From Pseudomonadota bacterium (GTDB taxonomy: Bacteria > Pseudomonadota > Alphaproteobacteria > Acetobacterales > Acetobacteraceae): a stretch of 64,000 bases of DNA. Below, piece by piece: positions 12,197-24,270 of the stretch (its first letter is position 1; the number at the start of each line of letters is the position of its first letter). The notes beneath the pieces are model-generated. The model did not search any database, was not told where the DNA came from, and saw only the letters and a program-made list of their open reading frames with translations. Position numbers and translations under genes: made by a program. Location of the stretch: NCBI GenBank assembly GCA_021809435.1, contig JAKBAD010000001.1:1-64000 (forward strand), in the 5' to 3' direction.

Positions 12197-12298
12197 TTAT
12201 GTTAATTAGCGGCGGGCGGGCGCTGTATTTCTCGGCGGGTCCGTGCTTTCATGGGGCTATTGTCGCTGGGTACTTGCGCGATCGGGAGGTGGGCAGAC

Positions 12299-13186
12299 GT
12301 GAATGAAGTGATGGCCGACCAAAATCTGCTGGAGGTCGAGCAACTCCCCTTCTGGACGGGGCCGATCAAGATTTGGCCGCTCGAGGGCGGCACCACCAAC
12401 CGCAACTATGGCGTGTTGCAGGCCGATGGTCAGCGCTTTGCCGTGCGGCTGGGCCAGGACCGGCCCGAGCATGGCGTGATGCGCTTTAACGAGCAGGCCG
12501 CCGCCAGGGCCGCCGCCAGGGCGGGGATTTCGCCCAAGATTTACTACACCGCCCCGGGCGTGATGGTGAGCCGGCTGCTGCCAGGGCGCAGCCTGAATGC
12601 CCAGGAGGTGGTGAAGCCCGAGAATTTGCTGCGCGTGGCCGCCTTGCTGCGGCGCTGCCATACCTCGATGGCGGCGTTTTTACAGGGGCCGCTGCTCTCG
12701 TTTTGGGTGTTTCACGTCAACCGCTCTTATTCGCAGGCGCTCACACGTGCCGAGTCGCGCATTGTGAACGAGTTGCCGCGGCTGATGGAGATTAATGATT
12801 TTCTCGAAACCCGCATCGGGCGGGTGGAGATTGTGTTTTGCCACAATGACCTGCTGGCCGGGAACATGTTTGACGACGGCGCCAGGCTGTGGCTGCTGGA
12901 CTGGGATTATGCCGGATTCAACGCCGCGCTGTTTGATTTGGCCAACCTGTCCTCGAACAATAATTTACGCCGGGAAGATGACATCGCGCTGCTTGAGGCC
13001 TATTATGGGCGCCCCTTCGAGCGCGAGGAATATGACATGTTCAGGGCGTTTAAATGTGCCTCGCTGCTGCGTGAGACGCTGTGGAACGCGACCTCGGAAT
13101 TCTCTTCCGAGATCGAGCATGATTATGCGCGCGCCACGGATGAGTATCTGGGCCGGCTCAATACCGCGCTCAGCGATTTGGACTGA
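12299..13186 (+). CDS. Choline/aminoglycoside kinase-family phosphotransferase
   Basis: 295 residues with the APH/choline-kinase fold. The catalytic loop is FCHNDLLAGNMF (HxDxxxxN) and the metal-binding motif is LLDWDYAG. Substrate recognition is not conserved enough to name a substrate; choline or another small hydroxylated compound is possible. GGAGGT at 12285-12290 is 8 nt before the GTG at 12299, which favours this start over the ATG at 12311 and the one at 12251. A small membrane protein gene follows after 5 nt, likely in the same transcript. Confidence 0.82.
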   Translation: MNEVMADQNLLEVEQLPFWTGPIKIWPLEGGTTNRNYGVLQADGQRFAVRLGQDRPEHGVMRFNEQAAARAAARAGISPKIYYTAPGVMVSRLLPGRSLNAQEVVKPENLLRVAALLRRCHTSMAAFLQGPLLSFWVFHVNRSYSQALTRAESRIVNELPRLMEINDFLETRIGRVEIVFCHNDLLAGNMFDDGARLWLLDWDYAGFNAALFDLANLSSNNNLRREDDIALLEAYYGRPFEREEYDMFRAFKCASLLRETLWNATSEFSSEIEHDYARATDEYLGRLNTALSDLD

Positions 13187-13472: not shown

Positions 13473-14663
13473 TCAGGCGGCTTGTGCGGCGGTGAAATTG
13501 GCGGCGCGGGCGGCCAGGCGCGCCTTGATGGCGGGGGGAACCTGACGGACGGATTTGGCGCGCGGCAGGGGCAGCTCGGGGATTGGGGGAGCTTCGGGGT
13601 GGTCGGCCCAGTTGTCGAAGGCCATGCGATCGACATTGTCGACGAAGCTTTCGGCGGGCGCGCCTTCGGCCAGCAGCAGGCTGTGCGTGGGCAGCTCGAT
13701 ATGGTGATAGGTGAAACAGGCGAGCATGGTGCTGGCGCGGGTGATGGTGATGCCATTAACCAGGGCGGCGGCCTGAATGAGGATGCCATCGACGAGCAGG
13801 GCGTGGTCGGGGGAGAGCCACAGATCGCGGAGGGGGAGGCCATCGGCCAGGGCGCCGGCCTGGATGCGTATGGGATAGGCGCGCAGAGGGTCGGCGAAGC
13901 GTGAGGCGACGCGGCGCTCGCCGCGCCAGCGCACGGGCTGGGCGGGGCCGTTATGGGTGAGCACCATGTCACCCGGCGCCAGCGATTCGACCGGGACTTC
14001 GCCCGTGGGGGTGGCGATCAGCGTGCCTTCGAGGAAGCAGAGATATTGAGTGGTGGCGCTGGTGGTGGTGAAATAGGGCGTGGTGGTTTGCGCGCCCGTG
14101 CCGGTGGTGAGGGCCGCGGCCGAGGTGATGCTGGTGCTCGCGGAATAGCTGACATTGGCGAATTCGAACGTGCTGCCGCTGGCCACCACCTGGTCATAGC
14201 CGCCGGCGATGTTGACGCCGATATAATAGGTGTTTTGGGCGGTGAGGCCGGCATTGGTGAGGGTGGTATAGCTGAGCGTGTAAACGGCCGTGCCGTTTTT
14301 ATAGAAGGTCAGCGTGTTGCCGCCGCTGAGCGAGCCCCATTCCAGCCCGAAGAAATTTTCGGTGGTGCTGAAGGCGAATGTGACGCTGCCCGCCGACGCG
14401 GTGGTGAAATAATCATTGGCGATGCCGCCAGTGCCCGTGGTGCTCGAGCCTGGCGCCCAGGCGCCGCTGCTATAGCCCAGATAAGTGCCCGCGCCGCCCG
14501 AGAAGCTGATGCTGCCGCCAGCGAATGTGAGGGTGGAGGCGGTGACTTCGGTGCCGCTGGTGCCATAGGCGCCGGTGAGGATTTCGGTGACGGCGCTGTT
14601 GCCGAGGGTAGGGGAGGTTGAAGTGCTGGTGAGATTGCTGACGGTGAAATAGCTGCTAGACAT
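13473..14663 (-). CDS. Hint-domain (intein/hedgehog-like) protein with Ser/Thr/Gly-rich N-terminal module
   Basis: 396 residues. The first about 205 form a Ser/Thr/Gly-rich predicted beta module without an obvious classical signal peptide. From Cys209 a Hint_2 domain begins: CFLEGTLIATPTGEVPVESL, then GDMVL and SPDHALLVDG at about 284-293. The Cys at the start of the domain and the SPDH block fit a self-processing or autoproteolytic fold, but no C-terminal His-Asn splice end is evident, so cleavage rather than splicing is likelier. Such proteins are frequent in alphaproteobacteria and often exported by type I systems; no transporter is adjacent. It has a 127-bp upstream gap carrying a two-copy direct repeat. 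Confidence 0.75.
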   Translation of the reverse strand: MSSSYFTVSNLTSTSTSPTLGNSAVTEILTGAYGTSGTEVTASTLTFAGGSISFSGGAGTYLGYSSGAWAPGSSTTGTGGIANDYFTTASAGSVTFAFSTTENFFGLEWGSLSGGNTLTFYKNGTAVYTLSYTTLTNAGLTAQNTYYIGVNIAGGYDQVVASGSTFEFANVSYSASTSITSAAALTTGTGAQTTTPYFTTTSATTQYLCFLEGTLIATPTGEVPVESLAPGDMVLTHNGPAQPVRWRGERRVASRFADPLRAYPIRIQAGALADGLPLRDLWLSPDHALLVDGILIQAAALVNGITITRASTMLACFTYHHIELPTHSLLLAEGAPAESFVDNVDRMAFDNWADHPEAPPIPELPLPRAKSVRQVPPAIKARLAARAANFTAAQAA

Positions 14664-14755: not shown

Positions 14756-14793
14756 TTTACGTGAGCGGGATCATATTTACGTGAGGGGGATCA
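14756..14793. repeat. Two-copy 18-bp direct repeat, 20-bp period
   Basis: TTTACGTGAGCGGGATCA at 14756-14773 and TTTACGTGAGGGGGATCA at 14776-14793, one mismatch, separated by 2 bp. The 20-bp period equals two helical turns. It lies about 95 bp upstream of the Hint-protein start and its right copy ends at the transglutaminase stop codon. A regulator site or a small tandem duplication are both possible. Confidence 0.5.
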
Positions 14794-15660
14794 GGTAAGC
14801 ACGGGTTCGAGGTCGACGCCGACGCGCACGATGTGGCGGCCGCCGCCCAGAATGATGCCGCGCAGGGGGGAGACATCGGCGAAATCGCGGCCCCAGGCGA
14901 GGGTGACGTGCTCATCGGCGATGATGAGGTTGTTGGTGGGGTCGAAATCGACCCAGCCAATATCGGGGCCGCACCAGGCGCCGACCCAGGCGTGGCTTTG
15001 GTCGGCGCCGCGGCGCTTGACCTGGCCGGGTGGCGGCAGGGTGCGCAGATAGCCCGATACGTAGCGCCCCGGCAGGCCCAGCGCGCGCAGGCAGGCGAGC
15101 ATGAAATGGGCGTAGTCCTGGCATACGCCGATGCGGGTTTTATAGGCGTGCAGGGCCGTGGTGGCGTTGGTGGTGACGCCGGGGACGTAGGTCATCTCGG
15201 TGTAGATGCGGGTATTCAGCTCGATCAGCCCTTCGAGGATTTTGCGCCCGGGCAGGAAGCTGACGGTGGCGTAATCGGCGATCTCGTTATGAAAGCGCGT
15301 GAGCTTGGAGGTAAGGCAGAATTCGGCCACGTCGGGGTCTTGGATGGCGCGGGCGTTGATGGCTTCCCAGCGCGGGGTTGTTTCGGGCGCCGGAGGCGGG
15401 GGGTGGGCGACGTCGATGGTGGCGTCGAGCGTGACGGCGAATTGCTTGTGGGCGCCGGTGAGGGAGACCGTGGTGGTGGTGTTGCCGAAATGGTCGATCT
15501 CGTCGCGGCGGGAATCGGGGGCGGGGAGGATGGTGAGCGCGGCCTCTATGACCTGCTGGCCCGTGCGCGCGCGCGGGAGCAGGTGCATGAAATGCGTGCC
15601 CAGCACGACGGGGGATTCATATTCGTAGGTGGTGGCGTGGTGCAGGCGGTAACGCGTCAT
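14791..15660 (-). CDS. Transglutaminase-like cysteine peptidase/acyltransferase (amidoligase cluster)
   Basis: 289 residues. An N-terminal beta domain (starting MTRYRLHHATTYEYESPV, bacterial transglutaminase N-terminal region) precedes the transglutaminase core. The likely triad is Cys180 (RIGVCQDYAHF), His223 (QSHAWVGAW) and Asp240 (GWVDFDPTNN). No signal peptide, so probably cytoplasmic. It belongs with the circularly permuted ATP-grasp and alpha-E genes next to it. This set has been proposed in comparative genomics to make and trim peptide-like amide linkages, but its product is unknown. Confidence 0.88.
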   Translation of the reverse strand: MTRYRLHHATTYEYESPVVLGTHFMHLLPRARTGQQVIEAALTILPAPDSRRDEIDHFGNTTTTVSLTGAHKQFAVTLDATIDVAHPPPPAPETTPRWEAINARAIQDPDVAEFCLTSKLTRFHNEIADYATVSFLPGRKILEGLIELNTRIYTEMTYVPGVTTNATTALHAYKTRIGVCQDYAHFMLACLRALGLPGRYVSGYLRTLPPPGQVKRRGADQSHAWVGAWCGPDIGWVDFDPTNNLIIADEHVTLAWGRDFADVSPLRGIILGGGRHIVRVGVDLEPVLT

Positions 15661-15708
15661 GATGCGGTGCAGGGTAACAGCTTGGCGCGGGGCGTCAAAA
15701 TCGTGGCG

Positions 15709-17919
15709 TTATTGGGCGGCGTCCATCAGCTCGTCATCGTCGAGGGCGTGGGCTTCGGGGAGGAGGGTGAAGAAGCGGTGATGCACGCGGTCTGATAAGG
15801 TGCGCAGGCGGGCGGCGACGCTGGCGAGGGCGGGGGTGAGGCCGCGCACCTGGCCGGCGAGGTTGAGGATGTCTTGCATCAGAAGGTGGGCGGTGGCGGC
15901 GTCATCGTCGGCGCCCAGGCGCTCGAGGCAGGCGCGCAGGGCGGCGGCCTGGAAGCCGAGCGCGCGGGGGTTGGCGAGGTCGGCCAGGAGCATGGAGAGC
16001 ACCGGGCCGGGCGCCAATATGCCGGCATGGCGCAGATCGTAGGAGAGCACCGAATCGGCCAGCTCGATGCTCAAGCCCATGCCGGGCTCGAGGCGCTCGG
16101 GCGGCGCGTCGAGCAAGATGGCCAGGGCTTCGGCCATGCTTTCGCCGCGCTCCAGCCGGCGGCCCATTTCAAGGAACAGCCAGCCGCCCTCGCGCGACAT
16201 GTTCTCGGCCGCGATGCCGGCGAAGGTGGCGGCGAAATTGAGCATGGTGGGCAGGGCGGTTTCTTCGTTGGGCAGGGCCTCGGTGGCCTGGTGCAGAGCG
16301 AAGCGCACGGTGGAGAGCATGGAGGGCGAGAGACGCTCGGACGAGGCATCGATCAGGCGCCCGACCTCCTTGAGCAGCCCGGCGAGGGGACGGCGGCGGG
16401 TGAGGGTTTGGCGCAGCAGCCGGCCCGAGATGGAGGCGGTGGCGATGTCGGGCGGTAGCAGCCCGGCCTGGGCCAGGCAGCGGGCCAGCAGGGCGCGCTC
16501 GGCGATGTCACGCGGGAGCGAGGTGCCGGATTCGAGCCGGGGCAGGGCCAGCATGAGCAGGCGGCAGGCGGATTCCAGGCGCTCGACCGAGCGGCCGAGC
16601 CAGAACAGATTATCGGCCAGGCGGGACGGCAGATGGGCGGCGGCCAGGAATTTGACGCGCTCGGGCGGCTCGGCCGGGGCGGCGCCGGCGATGAGGCGGG
16701 GCTCCTCGGCATCGAGCACCCAGACATCCTTGATGCCGGGCAGTTCGCCGGGCAGGGGCGGGGATTCGAGCGGGACGCCGAGGCCGCCGGGCAGGAGCTG
16801 CCACTCGGCGCCGTCATGCCAGGCGAACAGGCGGAGGCTCATGGGCAGGCCGGTAAAGCCCTGGCGGCAGGTGAAGGGCGCTTTGGAGGCGGTTTGGCGG
16901 GCATTGGCCGGGGCGTCCGGCAGGAGCGGGGATTCGGCGAGCAGGGCGGGGAACAGCCCGGCCAGATAGGGCTTGAGCGCGGCCGATTGGAGCAGCGCCG
17001 AGCCGGGGGCGTTGAGCATTTCAAGCACGCCCGCGCGGATGGCGCCAAACGAGCCGGGGATGCCAAGGCCAGGGCGGCCGCCTTGCTCGAGGGGGTCGAT
17101 GTCGATGCCCGAGATGCCGCGCAGCAGGGTGGAGACGTGCAGCAGCCCGCTCAGGGTTTTCATGTGCAGGGCGCCGTTGCGGGTGGCGAGGTCGCCGGGC
17201 TCGATGAGCATGAGCCCGAGCGCGCGGGCGAGCAGGGCGTCATCGACCGTGTCGTGCTCGGCGCCGTTGGCGGCGCCGGCCGAGAGCACGGCCACGATGC
17301 CGCCCTCGGCCTCGCGGTGCAGGTGATCGACCAGCATTTCGCGCGCCGGGCGCAGCGAGCGCAGCCCGCCGGCCCGGAACAGCTCGGGCACCGTGCCAGA
17401 CGACCAGCGGCGCAGATTGAGCGCCAGGCCGAGGCCGGGAATCATGCCGGTATGGTCGGCGAGCAGGGCGAAGCCGCCTTCGGGGGTACGCACCACATCG
17501 GCGGCGTAAAGCGACAGGCGGGGGCGCGGCAGGGGGCCGCGCGTGTGCATGGGGCGCAGGAAATGCTTGTCGCCCAGCACCAGGGCGGGCGGCAGATGGC
17601 CGCCGCGCAGGAGGGTTTGCGGGCCGTAGAGGTCTTCGAGGGTGGCGGAGAGCAGGCGGGCGCGCTGCTTCAGGCCGGCTTCGAGGGTGGCGAACTCGGT
17701 GGCGGTGAGCGGGACGGGCAGCGGGTCGGCGGTGAAGCGGGGGGGCTGGCCGAAGGGCGCGGCCAGGCCGATCTGGCGGTTGAGGGCGGCGCCACGGCGC
17801 TCGAGCTCTTCGGGGCCGATGTCGCGTGCCGCGCCCATGATGGGCAGCCAGGGCGTGCGGATGCGGCCCTGGCGGTCGATCATCTCGTCACAGGCGGCGG
17901 CAATGGTAAACATTCTCAT
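15709..17919 (-). CDS. Fusion of degenerate circularly permuted ATP-grasp and alpha-E domains
   Basis: 736 residues. About 1-420 align by motif order with circularly permuted ATP-grasp type 2 proteins (LYGPQTLLRGGHLPPALVLG, then LLADHTGMIPGLGLALNLR). About 430-736 is an alpha-E helical domain (SRLADNLFWLGRSVERLESACR). Compared with the unfused paralogue at 18230, the nucleotide-site motif LEDNxRxPSG reads LADHTGMIPG and the IYRRLNDDFLDPL segment reads LLRGISGIDIDPL, so key charged residues are lost and ATP-grasp catalysis is doubtful. It is transcribed with the transglutaminase and divergently from the intact ATP-grasp/alpha-E pair. No clear ribosome-binding site; the ATG two codons downstream is an alternative start. 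Confidence 0.85.
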   Translation of the reverse strand: MRMFTIAAACDEMIDRQGRIRTPWLPIMGAARDIGPEELERRGAALNRQIGLAAPFGQPPRFTADPLPVPLTATEFATLEAGLKQRARLLSATLEDLYGPQTLLRGGHLPPALVLGDKHFLRPMHTRGPLPRPRLSLYAADVVRTPEGGFALLADHTGMIPGLGLALNLRRWSSGTVPELFRAGGLRSLRPAREMLVDHLHREAEGGIVAVLSAGAANGAEHDTVDDALLARALGLMLIEPGDLATRNGALHMKTLSGLLHVSTLLRGISGIDIDPLEQGGRPGLGIPGSFGAIRAGVLEMLNAPGSALLQSAALKPYLAGLFPALLAESPLLPDAPANARQTASKAPFTCRQGFTGLPMSLRLFAWHDGAEWQLLPGGLGVPLESPPLPGELPGIKDVWVLDAEEPRLIAGAAPAEPPERVKFLAAAHLPSRLADNLFWLGRSVERLESACRLLMLALPRLESGTSLPRDIAERALLARCLAQAGLLPPDIATASISGRLLRQTLTRRRPLAGLLKEVGRLIDASSERLSPSMLSTVRFALHQATEALPNEETALPTMLNFAATFAGIAAENMSREGGWLFLEMGRRLERGESMAEALAILLDAPPERLEPGMGLSIELADSVLSYDLRHAGILAPGPVLSMLLADLANPRALGFQAAALRACLERLGADDDAATAHLLMQDILNLAGQVRGLTPALASVAARLRTLSDRVHHRFFTLLPEAHALDDDELMDAAQ

Positions 17920-18084
17920 GCGATTAACAGACTGACTCGGTCATGCCTACCAGGAAAATCCTCTTCCAGCGGGCGGACGGGGGCTTGGGCGGGGCGCTTG
18001 CCGCCCTTGGGTACGGCGTTTGCATGGTGCCACGCGGGAGGGCTTGCGGCCCGCCCGGTTTTGGTGACAGCTTGCGAGGGGAAC

Positions 18085-18120
18085 ATGACGAAAAGGCGTC
18101 AATGGATGGTTAGCGCATGA
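18085..18120 (+). CDS. Possible 11-residue leader peptide upstream of the ATP-grasp gene
   Basis: ATG preceded by GAGGGG encodes MTKRRQWMVSA and stops at TGA 18118-18120, which overlaps the next ATG (ATGA). Supported only by the ribosome-binding site and the overlap pattern; could be chance. Confidence 0.3.
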   Translation: MTKRRQWMVSA

Positions 18121-18233
18121 TGAAAAGCAGGGCGCCTTCCGCCTCGATGCCGCGAAAAGCGGCAGGATTTTTTGCCCGGCGCCACGCCGGCACGTGGTGT
18201 TTCTCTCTCCTGATGCGGAGGCTTGGGGTTTGA
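18117..18233 (+). CDS. Possible 38-residue basic peptide, coupled to the ATP-grasp gene
   Basis: Starts MMKSRAPSASMPRKAAGFF, rich in Arg/Lys, and ends ...LLMRRLGV. Its ATG overlaps the stop of the 11-residue frame and its TGA overlaps the TTG start of the ATP-grasp gene (TTGA). It fills the otherwise empty 310-bp divergent gap between the two ATP-grasp genes. Apart from this short frame the gap shows no other gene. It might be a translational coupler or a peptide substrate of the cluster; both are inference. Confidence 0.35.
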   Translation: MMKSRAPSASMPRKAAGFFARRHAGTWCFSLLMRRLGV

Positions 18234-19705
18234 CGAATTTATTTTCCACGCTCTGGCCGGATTATTCGGCCGGACGGTTTTTTTGCGAACTCACCGCCCC
18301 GCGCCCCGAGGCCGGGCCGGTGCCGCATTTGCTGGCCGAGCGGCTGAAGGCCATTGGGCTGGATGCGCTGCGGGCGCGGGCCTCGGCGGCGGAGACCGAG
18401 CTGATTGATCTCGGCGTGACCTTCACGGTGTATTCAGATGCCACCGCCATCGACCGGATTTTGCCCTTCGATTGCATTCCGCGCGTGCTGACCGCGCGTG
18501 AGTGGGATTTGATGGAGCGCGCCTGCGTGCAGCGCGTGGCGGCGCTGAATGCGTTTCTGGGCGATATTTACGGCAAGGGGTTGGTGGTCAAGGACGGGAT
18601 CATTCCGGCCGATTTGGTGTATGGCAATGCCAATTACCGCCCGGAAATGCAGGATTTTCAGGTGCCTTATGGCACATATGCGCATATTTGCGGCATCGAT
18701 ATCATCCGCGATGAGGCGGGGAAGTTCAGGGTGCTCGAGGATAATGCCCGCACGCCCTCGGGGGTTTCTTATGTGGTGGAGAACCGCCACCTGATGCTGC
18801 GCACCTTTCCCGACCTGATGGCCGGGATAAAGCTGCGCCCGGTGGATGATTATGGCCGCCGCCTGCGCGCCGCCATGGCCGAGGTGGCGCCCGAGGGCAC
18901 AGATGACCCGCAAGTGGTGCTGCTCTCGCCCGGTATTTATAACTCGGCCTATTTCGAGCATGTGTTTCTGGCCCGCGAAATGGGCGTGCCGCTGGTGGTG
19001 GGGGCCGATTTGGTGGTGGAAAATGAGCGCGTTTACATGCGCACCACCGCCGGGCTCAAGCGTGTGCACACCATTTACCGGCGCTTGAACGACGATTTTC
19101 TCGACCCGCTGGTGTTTCGGCCTGATTCGATGCTGGGCGTGCCGGGGCTGATTGGCGCGTGGCGCGCGGGCAAGGTGGCGATTGCCAACGCGGTGGGCAC
19201 GGGGGTGGCCGACGATAAGGCGGTTTATGCCTATATGCCGCGGATTATTAAATATTATTTGGGCGAGGAGCCGCTGATCGACAATGTCGAGACGCATATT
19301 TGCCGCGAGCCCGAGGGGCTGAAATATACGCTCGATAATCTGGATAAGCTGGTGACCAAGCCGGTGGGGGAGTCGGGCGGGTATGGCATTACCATTGGGC
19401 CACGGGCGAGCCAGGAGGAGCTGGAGGCCTCGCGCGCGGCGATTTTGGCCAACCCGGAGAACTGGATCAGCCAGCCGATGATCGGGCTTTCGGTGGCGCC
19501 GACGCTGGCCGAGGAGGGGATTGGGGCGCGGCATCTGGATTTGCGGCCCTTTATCATCACCGGGCGCTCGAGCTGGGTGCTGCCCGGCGGGCTGACGCGC
19601 GTGGCCATGAAGCGCGGCTCGCTGATTGTGAATTCAAGCCAGGGCGGGGGGTCGAAGGATACCTGGGTTTTGGCCGAGGAGTTTGGGACGGAGGGCGGGC
19701 TATGA
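18230..19705 (+). CDS. Circularly permuted ATP-grasp type 2 amidoligase
   Basis: 491 residues from the TTG at 18230, chosen because GCGGAGG lies 8 nt upstream; the GTG codons at 18194/18197 lack such a site. Core motifs look intact: DLVYGNANYRPEMQDFQVP, VLEDNARTPSGVSYVVENR, VHTIYRRLNDDFLDPL, KPVGESGGYGITIGP and the end RVAMKRGSLIVNSSQGGGSKDTW. These fit an ATP-dependent carboxylate-amine/thiol ligase of the DUF404/407 group. It overlaps the alpha-E gene by 4 bp. Substrate unknown; with its neighbours it suggests synthesis of a peptide-like amide product. Confidence 0.9.
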   Translation: MTNLFSTLWPDYSAGRFFCELTAPRPEAGPVPHLLAERLKAIGLDALRARASAAETELIDLGVTFTVYSDATAIDRILPFDCIPRVLTAREWDLMERACVQRVAALNAFLGDIYGKGLVVKDGIIPADLVYGNANYRPEMQDFQVPYGTYAHICGIDIIRDEAGKFRVLEDNARTPSGVSYVVENRHLMLRTFPDLMAGIKLRPVDDYGRRLRAAMAEVAPEGTDDPQVVLLSPGIYNSAYFEHVFLAREMGVPLVVGADLVVENERVYMRTTAGLKRVHTIYRRLNDDFLDPLVFRPDSMLGVPGLIGAWRAGKVAIANAVGTGVADDKAVYAYMPRIIKYYLGEEPLIDNVETHICREPEGLKYTLDNLDKLVTKPVGESGGYGITIGPRASQEELEASRAAILANPENWISQPMIGLSVAPTLAEEGIGARHLDLRPFIITGRSSWVLPGGLTRVAMKRGSLIVNSSQGGGSKDTWVLAEEFGTEGGL

Positions 19706-20712
19706 GCCAGATGCGAGATGCCGGGCTGCTGGCCCGCGATGCCGAGGGGCTGTTTTGGATGGCGCGCTATCTGGAACGGGTGGAGAATCTGGCCCGGCTG
19801 ATCGATGTGACGCAAAGCTTCGAGAGCCCGGGATTTGAGACCGAGGCGTGGTGGGGGCTGATCAAGATCAATGCCGATGAGACCAATTTCGTCGAGCGCG
19901 GCTTCTCGGCCGATGCCACGCATATCAAGCGGTTTTATCTGCTCGATAAGGGCAACTCGACCTCGATTCCGGCGAGCGTGGAGGGCGCGCGCACCAACGC
20001 GCGCACGCTGCGGCCGTTGATGAGCACCGAAATGTGGCGCCAGATCAATATGTTTCAGCGTTTTGTCAGCGCCATTTCTCCGGCTGATCTGGAGGGGGAT
20101 GCGCTCTCGCGCCTGTGCACGCGCATTAAGGAAGGGGTGCAGGCGCATACCGGCATCACCATGGGTACGCTCTATCGTGACCAGGGGTGGTATTTTTATG
20201 AGCTGGGGCGGTATTTGGAGCGCGCCGACCAGACCACGCGCATGCTCGACATTAAATACACCGCCCTGCTGCCCAAGGGAGCCGAGGAGGCGCGTGTGGC
20301 GGAGCTGACGCAATGGAACGCCGTGCTGCGGGCGGGGGCGGGGTATCATGCCTTCAAGCGCCAGGCACGGGCGGAATTCTCGGCCGAGGATGTGGTGCAG
20401 TTCATGCTGCGCGACCCTTCGAGCGCGCGCTCGGTGCTGCTGTGCGTGCGCCGGGTTGAGGCGCATCTGGATGATTTGCGGCGGCTTTATGGGCTCAACC
20501 AGGCCGGGGAGGCGATTGAGGAGGCGGAGTTCGTGCGCGCGCTGCTCACCGAAAAACCGCTTGGCCATATTCTCGCCACTGGTCTGCATGAGTATCTCGA
20601 TATCGTGCAGATTCATCTTCAACAGATTGCCGCCGCCATCGGCCGGGCGTTTTTTCGTGACTGGCGCCCCGCGCGTGAGCCGGGGGCGATGGCCGCCGAG
20701 AGTGCCGCGTGA
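19702..20712 (+). CDS. Alpha-E domain protein (DUF403)
   Basis: 336 residues, almost entirely helical, starting with the family signature LLARDAEGLFWMARYLERVENLARL. The alpha-E superfamily is consistently encoded with circularly permuted ATP-grasp proteins and named for conserved helices with a glutamate; the biochemical role is not settled. It overlaps the ATP-grasp gene upstream (ATGA) and the membrane glycosyltransferase downstream (GTGA), so all three are probably co-translated. Confidence 0.9.
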   Translation: MSQMRDAGLLARDAEGLFWMARYLERVENLARLIDVTQSFESPGFETEAWWGLIKINADETNFVERGFSADATHIKRFYLLDKGNSTSIPASVEGARTNARTLRPLMSTEMWRQINMFQRFVSAISPADLEGDALSRLCTRIKEGVQAHTGITMGTLYRDQGWYFYELGRYLERADQTTRMLDIKYTALLPKGAEEARVAELTQWNAVLRAGAGYHAFKRQARAEFSAEDVVQFMLRDPSSARSVLLCVRRVEAHLDDLRRLYGLNQAGEAIEEAEFVRALLTEKPLGHILATGLHEYLDIVQIHLQQIAAAIGRAFFRDWRPAREPGAMAAESAA

Positions 20713-22268
20713 CCCAGGACCGGTTAGAGCGGCTGGGCTGGCCGGGCCTGGTTTTTGGCGTGGCGCTGGTGCTGCGCCTGATTGGGCTGGGCGCCCGGCC
20801 ATTTTGGCTCGATGAGGTGTTCACGCTGCAGCGCGCCACCCTGCCGCCCGCCAAGCTGGTGCTGGATTCGTTCCAGAATCACCACATGCCCGTCTATTTT
20901 TTGCTGTTGCGGCCACTGACGCAGCTGGAGAATTTTCAGTTCTGGCTGCGGTTTCCCTCGGCCGTGTTTGGCGCTGGCGCGGTGGCGTTGGTTTATATCA
21001 TCGCCGAGCGCGTGGGCGGGCGGCTTTCGGCGCTGCTGTCGGCGTTGTTTCTGGGGCTCTCGCCGGCCTCGCTGGCTTACAGCCAGGAGGCGCGATCTTA
21101 CACGCTGATCATGATGCTGATTCTGGTCGGGCTGTATGGGGTGGTGCGGCTGGCGCTGGATGTGCCGGCGGCCGCGCGTCCGCTGCGCGAGGGGGCAGAA
21201 CGGCTGGGGTGGGGTTTGTTCATTCTGGGCACCGCCGGCGCGGTGGATGTGCTGCCCGATAGCTTGCTGTGGCTGATGAGCGCCAATTTGATCTTTGCCG
21301 TGATGATCGCCCAGGCGGCGGACAGGCGGGGGCTGGCGCGCAATGTTTTGGTGGCCAATTTGATCATTCTGGCGCTCGCCGCGCCGCTTTATGCGCTGCT
21401 GGAGCTGTTTCAGCTCAAAGGATTTGTGGCGACGCTGGCTTGGGTGCCGCCGCTCGATCTCGCCCGGCTGTGGTATAGTTTTGGGTCGGTCTATTTCATG
21501 CATATCGCCGATGCCACCAGTTTCCGGCTGCTCGACCGGGGGTATCAGGTGCCGCTGCTGGTGGGGGTGGATGTGCTGCTGGCGGCCGCCGTGGCCACCG
21601 CCGCCTGGACGCTGCGCCGCCGCCCCGGCGTGCTGGCCGCGCTGGGCCTGTCGTTTCTGGTGCTGCCCGTGGCGCTGACGCTGTTTTCGCTGTGGCAGCC
21701 CGTGCTGGTGCCGCGCTATATTTTTTGGTCAGCGGCGCCGTTTTCGGTGCTGGCGGGGGTGGGCGCGGCGGTGGCGCTGCGCCGGTTGCGCCCTTGGACG
21801 AGGGGGCTGAGCGTGGCCGGACTGGCCATGGTGCTGACGGTCAATCTGGCCGCTTATTACCAGGCCGAGACCAAGCCGCGCTGGGATTTGGCGGCCCAGA
21901 TGCTGGCCGCCGAAGTGGCGCCGGGAGACGTGATTTATGTGCCTGACCTGTATGGGCCGAAGCTGCTGAAGGTGTATTTACCGCCCGCGAAGCAAGATGT
22001 GCTGAAGACCAGCCTGGCCACCGACCTGCCCGATGCCCAGGCGGCCATGGCGCAGGGCAAGCGTGTGTGGTCGGTTTATGGGGTGGCGGGGCAGACGAGC
22101 GACCCGCGGCCGAAAAAGGCGCTTTATGCCAATATCGATGCGTTGGGCACGCCGGTGGAAGTGCAGGTGGTGGGGCAGAAGATTTTGATTGTGCTGAACG
22201 CCCCCAATGCCCAGTCATCCAATGCCCAGTCATCGCCGTGCCAGGTGGGGCAGGCGGGGTGCAGCTAG
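20709..22268 (+). CDS. GT39/ArnT-like membrane glycosyltransferase
   Basis: 519 residues, about 11-12 membrane helices. The first luminal loop has ARPFWLDEVFTLQ and a later loop has LAYSQEARSYTL, both typical of GT-C enzymes that use polyprenyl-phosphate sugars. The C-terminal soluble part (from about 400) is short and ends in a Cys-containing tail. GTG start overlaps the alpha-E stop, linking it to the amidoligase cluster by transcription, although a functional link is not established. Confidence 0.78.
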   Translation: MTQDRLERLGWPGLVFGVALVLRLIGLGARPFWLDEVFTLQRATLPPAKLVLDSFQNHHMPVYFLLLRPLTQLENFQFWLRFPSAVFGAGAVALVYIIAERVGGRLSALLSALFLGLSPASLAYSQEARSYTLIMMLILVGLYGVVRLALDVPAAARPLREGAERLGWGLFILGTAGAVDVLPDSLLWLMSANLIFAVMIAQAADRRGLARNVLVANLIILALAAPLYALLELFQLKGFVATLAWVPPLDLARLWYSFGSVYFMHIADATSFRLLDRGYQVPLLVGVDVLLAAAVATAAWTLRRRPGVLAALGLSFLVLPVALTLFSLWQPVLVPRYIFWSAAPFSVLAGVGAAVALRRLRPWTRGLSVAGLAMVLTVNLAAYYQAETKPRWDLAAQMLAAEVAPGDVIYVPDLYGPKLLKVYLPPAKQDVLKTSLATDLPDAQAAMAQGKRVWSVYGVAGQTSDPRPKKALYANIDALGTPVEVQVVGQKILIVLNAPNAQSSNAQSSPCQVGQAGCS

Positions 22269-22547: not shown

Positions 22548-23339
22548 TCAGACCGTTGCTTCGACCAGGAAATGCCCCTGGGTTTGGTGGCTGCCTTCGG
22601 TGAAGCCGCGGGCTTCGAGGAGGGTGCGGATGTCTTGGACCATGCTCTTGTTGCCGCACATCACGACACGGTCGGTTTCGATGTCGAGGGGCGGCATGCC
22701 GAGATCCATTTCCAGCTTGCCCTGTTCGAGCAGCGTGGTGATGCGCCCGACAGTGAGATAGGGCTCGCCGGTGACGGTGGGGTAGAAGAATAGTTTTTTG
22801 AGCACGATCTCCTCGAAATATTCGTCTTTGAGGAGGTTGGTGATGCTGGCTTCGGTGAAGGCCAACTCACGCGCGTGACGGGCGCTGTGGACGAACACGA
22901 TGTAATCGTAGAACTCGTAGGTATCGATGTCTTTGATGACGGAGAGCAGGGGGGCGAGGCCCGAGGTGGTGGCGAACAGGTAAAGCTGCCGGGCGCCGGG
23001 CGAGAGGTTGTTGAGGGTGAGGGCGCCGGCGGGTTTGCCGCCGACCACGATCTGGTCGCCCGGTTTCATGGCGGCGAGGCGCCGCGTGAGGTCGCCGCCA
23101 TCGGCGGTGGAGAAGAAGAATTCGAGATGTTCCTCATGCACGGCCGAGCACAGGGAGGCGGGCTTGAGGACGGGGTTTTCGCCCTCCATCAGGGGGTGGC
23201 CATCGACCACGATGCCGAGCGGCGTGGACTGACCGCAGAGAAAGCGGAAACCGGGATTACGGGTGGTTTGGAAGCTGAAGAGGGTATCCGTCCAATGGGT
23301 GAGGGAGGTTACCGTCTCGGTATATAGATTGGTCGCCAT
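22548..23339 (-). CDS. Ferredoxin/flavodoxin-NADP+ reductase paralogue with altered cofactor motifs
   Basis: 263 residues, plainly homologous along its whole length to the next gene upstream (shared YTETVT, TRNPGFRF, EEHLEFF, FYPTVT, TDRV, GFxEGSH). The FAD-binding RxYS motif is replaced by PASLCS (K59-P60-A61-S62), preceded by a 6-residue insertion. The NADP-binding TGTGLAPF is changed to TTSGLAPL (124-131), and the end is FLVEATV instead of AFVEK. It may have changed cofactor or redox partner, or lost reductase activity. The gene has no stops or frameshifts, so it appears to be kept under selection. Confidence 0.82.
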   Translation of the reverse strand: MATNLYTETVTSLTHWTDTLFSFQTTRNPGFRFLCGQSTPLGIVVDGHPLMEGENPVLKPASLCSAVHEEHLEFFFSTADGGDLTRRLAAMKPGDQIVVGGKPAGALTLNNLSPGARQLYLFATTSGLAPLLSVIKDIDTYEFYDYIVFVHSARHARELAFTEASITNLLKDEYFEEIVLKKLFFYPTVTGEPYLTVGRITTLLEQGKLEMDLGMPPLDIETDRVVMCGNKSMVQDIRTLLEARGFTEGSHQTQGHFLVEATV

Positions 23340-23496: not shown

Positions 23497-24270
23497 TTAT
23501 TTCTCGACGAAGGCTTTCTCGATCACATATTCGCCGCGCTCATGGTGGCTGCCTTCGGCGAAGCCGCGGCGTTCGAGCATGGTTTGCAGGTCGCTCAGCA
23601 TGGCCGGGCTGCCGCAGAGCATGACGCGGTCGGTCTCTTTGTTGAGGGCGGGCAGGCCGAGATCGGCTTCGAGTTTGCCGGCCTCGAACAAGGCGGTGAG
23701 GCGGCCATTATGGCGGAAGGGCTCGCGGGTGACGGTGGGGTAATAGAGCAGCTTCTCGCGCGCCAGCTCGCCGAAGAACTCATCGTTATAGAGCTTGTTG
23801 ACGACTTCCTCGCCATAGCCGAGCTCGGCGATTTCGCGGCAGCCATGGGCGAGCACGATATGGTCGTAGAGGTCGTAGGTCTCGGGGTCTTTGGCGATGG
23901 AGACGAAGGGCGCGAGGCCGGTGCCGGTGGAGAGCAGGTAAAGCGTTTTGCCCGGCTTGAGGTTTTGCTGGATGAGCGTGCCAGTGGGCTTGGCGCCGAC
24001 CAGAAGCTCATCGCCCACCTGGATTTTTTGCAGATGCTGGGTGAGCGGGCCGTTGGGCACCTTGATCGAGAAAAACTCGAGATGGTCTTCGTGGTGGGCG
24101 CTGCACACCGAATAGGCGCGCAGCAGCGGCTTGCCGTTGATGGTCAGCCCGATCATGGTGAATTGCCCGCTGATGAACCGGAAGCCGGGATTGCGGGTGG
24201 CCGTGAAGCTGAATAGCCGGTCGGTCCAGTGCCGGACGGTGGTGACCGTCTCGGTGTACATCGTCGCCAA
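23497..24270 (-). CDS. fpr: Ferredoxin/flavodoxin-NADP+ reductase (Fpr type)
   Basis: 257 residues. FAD-binding RAYS at 51-54 with SVCSA, NADP-binding TGTGLAPF at 115-122, CGSPAM near the C-terminus, and the C-terminal AFVEK typical of the Azotobacter/Rhodobacter group of bacterial reductases. It exchanges electrons between NADPH and ferredoxin or flavodoxin, often in oxidative-stress defence. The TTG at 24270 is supported by GGAG 9 nt upstream and by alignment with the ATG of its tandem paralogue; the ATG at 24261 is an alternative. Confidence 0.9.
   Translation of the reverse strand: MATMYTETVTTVRHWTDRLFSFTATRNPGFRFISGQFTMIGLTINGKPLLRAYSVCSAHHEDHLEFFSIKVPNGPLTQHLQKIQVGDELLVGAKPTGTLIQQNLKPGKTLYLLSTGTGLAPFVSIAKDPETYDLYDHIVLAHGCREIAELGYGEEVVNKLYNDEFFGELAREKLLYYPTVTREPFRHNGRLTALFEAGKLEADLGLPALNKETDRVMLCGSPAMLSDLQTMLERRGFAEGSHHERGEYVIEKAFVEK

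Follow-up and report, generated by a model that had tools for sequence, protein, structure and literature searches.

A divergent ATP-grasp/alpha-E/transglutaminase cluster of Acidocella with a predicted pseudo-ligase and a sigma-54-like site

We describe a cluster of two divergent gene pairs at positions 14,791 to 20,712 of a stretch of 64,000 nucleotides (the window) from contig JAKBAD010000001.1, assembly GCA_021809435.1; the genus is inferred to be Acidocella. The cluster encodes a transglutaminase-like protein (TG), a fusion of a degenerate ATP-grasp domain with an alpha-E domain (FUS), an intact circularly permuted (CP) ATP-grasp ligase (GRASP) and a stand-alone alpha-E protein (AE). With a probability of about 0.55 we consider it the Acidocella version of the widespread TG/CP-ATP-grasp/alpha-E module, in which GRASP is live, FUS is an inactive subunit, a DUF2126 protein encoded elsewhere in the genome takes part, and expression is under sigma-54/nitrogen control. 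The kind of system is known; what is added here is the divergent TG-FUS/GRASP-AE layout, the absence of the Anbu peptidase, the unlinked DUF2126 gene and a pseudo-ligase that has no nucleotide loop.

In the proposed mechanism GRASP would be an ATP-dependent ligase of the glutathione-synthetase type that phosphorylates a carboxylate and joins it to an amine, as its fold and motifs suggest. The overlap of their genes and the gene fusion seen in FUS point to AE as a constant helical partner of GRASP; by the same gene-fusion argument, AE and the alpha-E half of FUS may hold the two halves together. FUS, a presumably permanently inactive copy of the GRASP-AE pair, would act within the ligase as a subunit with a structural or regulatory role. 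TG, which is cysteine-hydrolase-like, would cleave or transfer the amide, while an unlinked TG-DUF2126 protein is a putative second ligase of the same module. The GRASP-AE transcript probably starts from a sigma-54-type promoter, which would be on under nitrogen limitation. The features are as follows.

14791..15660, minus strand: TG, transglutaminase-like protein, 289 aa (Pfam PF08379 and PF01841)
15709..17919, minus strand: FUS, pseudo-ATP-grasp/alpha-E fusion, 736 aa (Pfam; AlphaFold pLDDT 87.4, pTM 0.80)
15769..16632, minus strand: alpha-E domain of FUS with intact E-R pairs (PF04168; E-R positions)
16711..17901, minus strand: pseudo-ATP-grasp domain of FUS, residues 7-403
16900..16911, minus strand, approximate: site at which FUS lacks about 59 residues relative to GRASP, including the Lys/Gly-rich nucleotide loop (alignment)
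17452..17460, minus strand: FUS residues 154-156, A-D-H in place of the E-D-N of active ligases (alignment)
17920..18229: divergent intergenic region, 310 bp given a TTG start of GRASP
18009..18024, plus strand: sigma-54-like -24/-12 element GGGTACGGCGTTTGCA, pointing toward GRASP (GG-N10-GC, genus conservation)
18230..19705, plus strand: GRASP, intact circularly permuted ATP-grasp ligase of the A2 clade (full-length Pfam match, 3n6x, motifs, tree)
19702..20712, plus strand: AE, stand-alone alpha-E protein; its gene and that of GRASP share 4 bp (PF04168, 257.6 bits)
20709..22268, plus strand: GT, glycosyltransferase-like neighbour, probably outside the module

The four genes lie at the places and on the strands given in the initial annotation of this DNA, made from the letters alone, and its designation of an amidoligase-type cluster is supported by the Pfam domains and by the intact motifs of GRASP; its inventory included neither the unlinked DUF2126 gene nor the sigma-54-like site and did not note that Anbu is absent. 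All four proteins score well over the Pfam cut-offs: TG matches Bact_transglu_N (78.1 bits) and Transglut_core (65.5 bits); FUS matches Alpha-E (138.7 bits) and CP_ATPgrasp_2 (211.8 bits, over profile positions 1-272 of 374 only); GRASP, in the frame scanned from 18194, matches CP_ATPgrasp_2 with 520.9 bits over positions 1-374. GRASP also matches Methylobacillus flagellatus 3n6x (E 9.7e-159), with ligase motifs intact. The TG triad Cys180-His223-Asp240 is intact and kept in 63 of 63 aligned sequences, the window's included, and the E-R positions of the alpha-E domain of FUS are retained in 63 to 65 of 65. AE is predicted to be all-helical (pLDDT 91.1); in a comparison of alpha-E with solved structures no fold relative stood out. 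The window genome (2.65 Mb in 12 contigs) has a single copy of each part of the module, its two CP-ATP-grasp genes and two alpha-E genes at E <= 0.001 being those of the cluster.

We regard the TTG codon at 18230 as a plausible start of GRASP: GGAGG lies upstream of it, and in an alignment of 34 genus sequences (counting the window) all have TTG, GTG or ATG at this codon. With this start the divergent region comprises 17920-18229, that is, the 310 bp proposed initially.

The predicted pseudo-ligase and the putative live ligase

Judged by its residues, FUS is a pseudoenzyme, and this is so for each of the 96 aligned fusions from alphaproteobacteria, hence beyond Acidocella. Both metal-site residues, E and N, are present in 85 of 86 stand-alone GRASPs (the remaining one has a gap) and in none of the 96 fusions. 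Losses of E182, N184, H447 and D449 were each seen in 96/96 fusions, that of K342 in 95, of N480 in 94 and of K389 in 91, while D183, R198, D304, N332, R451, D489 and W491 are mostly retained. Where 85 GRASPs have a median of 60 residues in the segment of the nucleotide loop, a single residue is left in the window's fusion and in each of 31 other fusions from the genus. In Cp1B the E-x-N pair was reported to be close to the nucleotide (PMC12568646). In the AlphaFold model the N-terminal domain of FUS keeps a glutathione-synthetase-like fold; of what marks an active ATP-grasp enzyme the fold is thus predicted to be present, whereas the E-x-N metal site and the Lys/Gly nucleotide loop, sought by alignment as intact ATP-binding residues, are missing. 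The view of FUS as a lineage-specific decaying gene was rejected, as the same losses appear in fusions checked across family and class.

The putatively live ligase belongs to a clade of its own. In a tree of 112 rows, A2 (66 rows, including the window) separated from A1 (46 rows) with an SH-aLRT value of 100, though the two sets were initially split by similarity to the window, which makes their clade status partly expected, and ∼30 of the A2 rows come from one genus. Links with Anbu and FUS were not used in the split. We observed Anbu in 14 of 46 A1 loci, a lower bound as L191-L220 carry only ∼1.5 kb of flank, versus 0 of 65 A2 loci; the Anbu profile was built from eight loci picked by start pattern. 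FUS was in the same locus as the ligase in 0 of 46 A1 loci versus 39 of 65 A2 loci. The window ligase is outside the Anbu-linked clade, and Anbu was not found in the window genome, where the only PF00227 match is HslV, beside HslU. On this genomic evidence Anbu is not always needed by the module.

Conservation, co-occurrence and joint decay of the parts

The gene group is conserved in relatives. In a protein search of 38 Acidocella genomes, FUS proper was present in 36, in several of them as contig-end fragments only; the search matched 37, the sole match in genome G080 being a cross-hit to GRASP, and FUS was not found in G080 or G093. Ten FUS loci are in named genomes, five of them Acidocella, including A. 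aromatica DSM 27026 and A. facilis ATCC 35904. The divergent FUS/GRASP pair is on one contig in 31 genus relatives as well as in the window, with a spacing of 171-449 nt in these 32 loci when counted as far as the place that corresponds to the GTG at 18194. The GRASP and AE genes overlap in every one of the 32 intact loci. FUS and TG overlap or are separated by no more than 73 nt in all but one of 32 loci, where 514 nt lie between them.

In Acidocella, TG-FUS and GRASP-AE stand together and DUF2126 is elsewhere. The TG-DUF2126 fusion gene of the window genome (G000:C4:492340-494811) is unlinked, ∼470 kb away; in the genus genomes G061, G068 and G091 DUF2126 is on the contig of the cluster, at 17-22 kb. 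We had considered a loss of DUF2126 in Acidocella, and this was wrong: the gene is present, unlinked, with matches in 35 of the 38 genus genomes (remnants only in G080). In one genome (G090, locus L109) GRASP lies in two frames and DUF2126 is split as well, which could be early decay or an assembly error in a low-coverage metagenome-assembled genome (MAG).

Co-occurrence was assessed in two samples. In the family (60 genomes) we found alpha-E in 50 genomes, CP-ATP-grasp in 50 and DUF2126 in 39; the class sample had 193 genomes with completeness of at least 95%. In the class, stand-alone GRASP was present in 32 of 32 genomes with FUS and in 30 of 30 with DUF2126, and neither FUS nor DUF2126 was found in any of the 112 genomes that had no GRASP. 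In the family, GRASP accompanied FUS in 36 of 37 genomes and DUF2126 in 38 of 39, with G031 the exception to both. Of the genomes with FUS, 26 of 32 in the class and 34 of 37 in the family also had DUF2126. For the class table, FUS and GRASP were assigned by frame length and score, and 31 class FUS loci were then confirmed by profile; as for fragments, G273 was excluded from GRASP and G258 retained, while G002, G012 and G039 were counted as FUS. Since GRASP is present wherever FUS or DUF2126 occurs (bar G031), GRASP forms the core, to which FUS and DUF2126 are accompanying additions; which of the two ligases binds FUS is not decided by co-occurrence. In loci L177, L252 and L253 a protein of TG-DUF2126 size adjoins GRASP-AE in the opposite direction, with no FUS, an arrangement that ties DUF2126 to GRASP independently of FUS.

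In G080 the parts decayed together. Of TG a 3′ remnant interrupted by a stop is left, and no FUS gene remains. A frameshift and a deletion that extends into AE disrupt GRASP, and AE itself carries a frameshift and a stop. DUF2126, on a separate contig, is down to residues 953-1096, at 49% identity and again with a stop. GT (519 aa) has an open frame, as have neighbouring open reading frames (ORFs). The unlinked DUF2126 gene thus shared the fate of the cluster in this genome and GT did not.

Several observations count against the reading given at the outset. The Fisher p values of the pairs (1e-14 to 1.3e-4) ignore kinship. G031, rated 100% complete and in 380 contigs, has FUS and DUF2126 with no stand-alone GRASP; five family genomes have DUF2126 and GRASP with no FUS, so that FUS is dispensable there. 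G080 is a single Acidocella MAG, 86% complete. Pull-downs with Anbu as bait were reported to yield no complex among the Yersinia operon proteins (PMC6376114). Outside Acidocella, a long TG-DUF2126 protein is encoded in one stretch with FUS at 21 of 34 loci from the family and 24 of 31 from the class, and GRASP at 6 and 5, respectively, one of the five (L240) being a weak match of 37 bits. This last pattern, the presence of DUF2126 in most FUS genomes and the case of G031 would all be expected if FUS were chiefly the partner of the DUF2126 ligase, DUF2126-FUS-TG forming one machine and GRASP-AE another, with the two juxtaposed in Acidocella. We take this explanation seriously and yet consider it unlikely: among genomes with FUS, 6 of 32 in the class and 3 of 37 in the family have no DUF2126; the pairing of FUS with GRASP is the stricter one; in Acidocella FUS adjoins GRASP with DUF2126 elsewhere; DUF2126 itself keeps company with GRASP; and all parts were lost together in G080. 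The initial suggestion that the degenerate fusion is a non-catalytic partner of the active ligase therefore holds in that the catalytic residues are gone and the fusion goes with GRASP; that GRASP rather than DUF2126 is the partner is likely, though unsettled.

Other explanations seem to us less credible. One could speculate that FUS is a different kind of catalyst, its E changed and its N turned into a basic residue to give a metal-free site with a new reaction; D183 is kept in 90 of 96 fusions and position 184 is R, H or K in 91, more order than neutral decay would leave. Such a catalyst is improbable in view of the deleted nucleotide loop and the nearly universal loss of H447, D449 and N480. 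We find it very improbable that the cluster serves to mark proteins for a proteasome-like peptidase, a role proposed for the Anbu operon: enzyme families are common to both (PMC5666114, PMC6376114) and HslVU is present in the window genome, but HslV is the only candidate of its family there and A2 loci are free of Anbu. The initial annotation further described a translationally coupled GT39-like gene whose protein could glycosylate the product or its carrier. The 4-bp overlap of GT with AE is real, and in all 30 intact loci measured GT comes next after AE, at a spacing between -10 and +53 nt; the family label is doubtful, as the matches to PMT_2 (17.7 bits against a Pfam cut-off of 26.1) and TIGR03663 (22.9 against 126.25) are both weak. 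We give glycosylation hardly any credence. Overlap was seen in only 11 of the 30 loci, a homologue with 41% identity is present in the family genome G058 although GRASP, alpha-E and DUF2126 are all missing there, and homologues are unlinked in G053 and G056; because of these occurrences outside the module and of the intact GT in the decayed G080 the idea was dropped, and GT is probably a bystander rather than a member.

Within the reading of FUS as an inactive subunit of a live GRASP, a more specific version may be put forward: in a ligase for nitrogen starvation, the dead fused half would gate the live, Anbu-free A2 GRASP-AE via a metal-free effector pocket, with a conserved basic residue replacing the metal-ligand Asn, while TG and DUF2126 act on the same amide-linked compound. 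We hold this version tentatively, as one that rather probably fails in some part. If the gating is true, Acidocella would have retained the pseudo-site despite losing the whole nucleotide loop.

The sigma-54-like site and possible nitrogen control

The most conserved 16-mer of the divergent region is at 18009-18024 (0.871, versus a mean of 0.536). All 32 genus loci have GG-N10-GC at the aligned place, and the score there is at least 10/12 in 25 of them. With any place and either strand allowed, a site scoring at least 10/12 was found in 26 of 32 loci versus 1.5 expected (maximum of 5 in 100 shuffles); as the loci are related, the shuffle count overstates their independence, and the stronger argument is that the element is more conserved than its flanks. 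RpoN is encoded in the genome (G000:C4:480233-480706); its gene and the unlinked DUF2126 gene are ∼12 kb apart. In other genera, sites at the same threshold were observed before first genes, in 11 of 52 cases for DUF2126 (shuffle mean 0.84) and in 9 of 47 for GRASP of clade A1 (shuffle mean 1.2), while FUS, taken as an internal-gene control, had them in 2 of 64 cases (shuffle mean 1.16).

Two further stretches of the divergent region, 18055-18075 and 17920-17940, are conserved and are possibly activator sites or promoter sites of FUS. We considered and rejected a small precursor-peptide ORF (11 aa in the window) located after the sigma-54-like site and ahead of GRASP, since its length, sequence and start are not conserved.

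Published data connect similar genes with nitrogen. In Burkholderia cenocepacia, I35_5080-83 (DUF404/407, DUF403, TG-like and large TG-like proteins) were reported as common sigma-54/NtrC targets, with values of -8.2, -9.4, -9.4 and -6.0 in an ntrC mutant (PMC5491218). In Pseudomonas putida, PP_2685-2688 were assigned to NtrB/NtrC, and nitrogen limitation raised PP_2686-2688 by 11- to 15-fold in wild-type cells (PMC7801951); a separate study found PP_2685 and PP_2688 to be nitrogen-sensitive (PMC8050072). In marine metagenomes DUF403/404/407 cluster with urea-metabolism domains (PMC3597751). Sigma-54 control of such genes in other bacteria may already be in print.

Other data argue against sigma-54 control. 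The site of the window has GGG where the genus consensus has TGG; three of the nine sites before GRASP-A1 (L191-L193) come from a single genus; the excess before GRASP-A2 outside the genus is weak (5 of 35, mean 0.84, shuffle maximum 4); and no site scoring at least 10/12 was found before DUF2126 in 12 genes, 11 from Acidocella and one from a sister genus. In P. putida, PP_2686-2688 were still up 14- to 20-fold in an rpoN mutant (PMC7801951, Table 2), and PP_2685 was hardly induced in either the wild type or the mutant (PMC7801951). The nitrogen link holds in P. putida and the sigma-54 requirement does not. The cluster may be part of the response to nitrogen shortage.

Related systems and neighbouring genes

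A peptide system of CP-ATP-grasp, alpha-E, transglutaminase and DUF2126 proteins was reportedly described by Iyer et al. in 2009, and an inactive ATP-grasp fused N-terminal to alpha-E is reportedly a feature mentioned in the text of Pfam PF04174. The Acidocella module has the same component families (GRASP, alpha-E, TG, DUF2126 and the inactive fusion): we found a CP-ATP-grasp ligase, an adjacent alpha-E gene, the TG triad, a fusion inactive by its residues and a TG-DUF2126 fusion. It differs in that DUF2126 is unlinked, Anbu is absent, TG-FUS is divergent from GRASP-AE and the loop of FUS is deleted.

The Anbu operon (Yersinia bercovieri; PP_2685-2688 of P. putida) has the same ATP-grasp, alpha-E and transglutaminase families, and induction by nitrogen limitation is reported for P. 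putida genes of the operon, persisting in the rpoN mutant; the window cluster, in contrast, has no Anbu, a ligase of the separate clade A2 and an extra pseudo-ligase fusion. The Y. bercovieri ATP-grasp protein was reported to release phosphate from ATP with no stimulation by glutamine, glutamate or Anbu, and the published hypotheses on the operon lacked experimental confirmation as of 2017 (PMC6376114). I35_5080-83 of B. cenocepacia encode the same families and differ in forming one cluster; the accessible part of the source names no fused ATP-grasp/alpha-E protein. Methylobacillus flagellatus 3n6x, eukaryotic glutathione synthetases, YgiC/YjfC, GspS and Cp1B share the fold, with GRASP by sequence (3n6x) and with the N-terminal domain of FUS by model, although FUS has neither the E-x-N pair nor the Gly-rich loop. 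RloABC of Pseudomonas aeruginosa, a genetic unit of ATP-grasp, transglutaminase-like and peptidase genes (PMC12239564), offers an analogy only: its transglutaminase is reported to be inactive and membrane-located, and RloC is compared with RimK and, in the accessible text, not described as circularly permuted.

In listings from open-licence PMC papers we recognised no characterised product of the system. The product question is narrowed in that Anbu is not always required, GT is probably out, the unlinked DUF2126 protein is probably in and nitrogen control may apply. With named cultured species (A. aromatica and A. facilis) and single-copy parts, the question is directly testable in Acidocella.

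Some neighbouring genes deserve mention. Two ferredoxin-NADP reductase-like genes lie at 22548-23339 and 23497-24270, both on the minus strand; the former, a reductase according to NCBIfam with no Pfam match at E 0.01, looks degenerate, as the R-x-Y-S motif for FAD was by eye absent from it and present in the latter. A Hint_2 protein (13473-14663, minus strand), with an N-terminal exosortase-type surface-protein domain (Npun_F0296), adjoins TG in some Acidocella loci only. A choline-kinase/APH-like gene at 12251-13186 on the plus strand keeps its position beside the cluster in several Acidocella loci.

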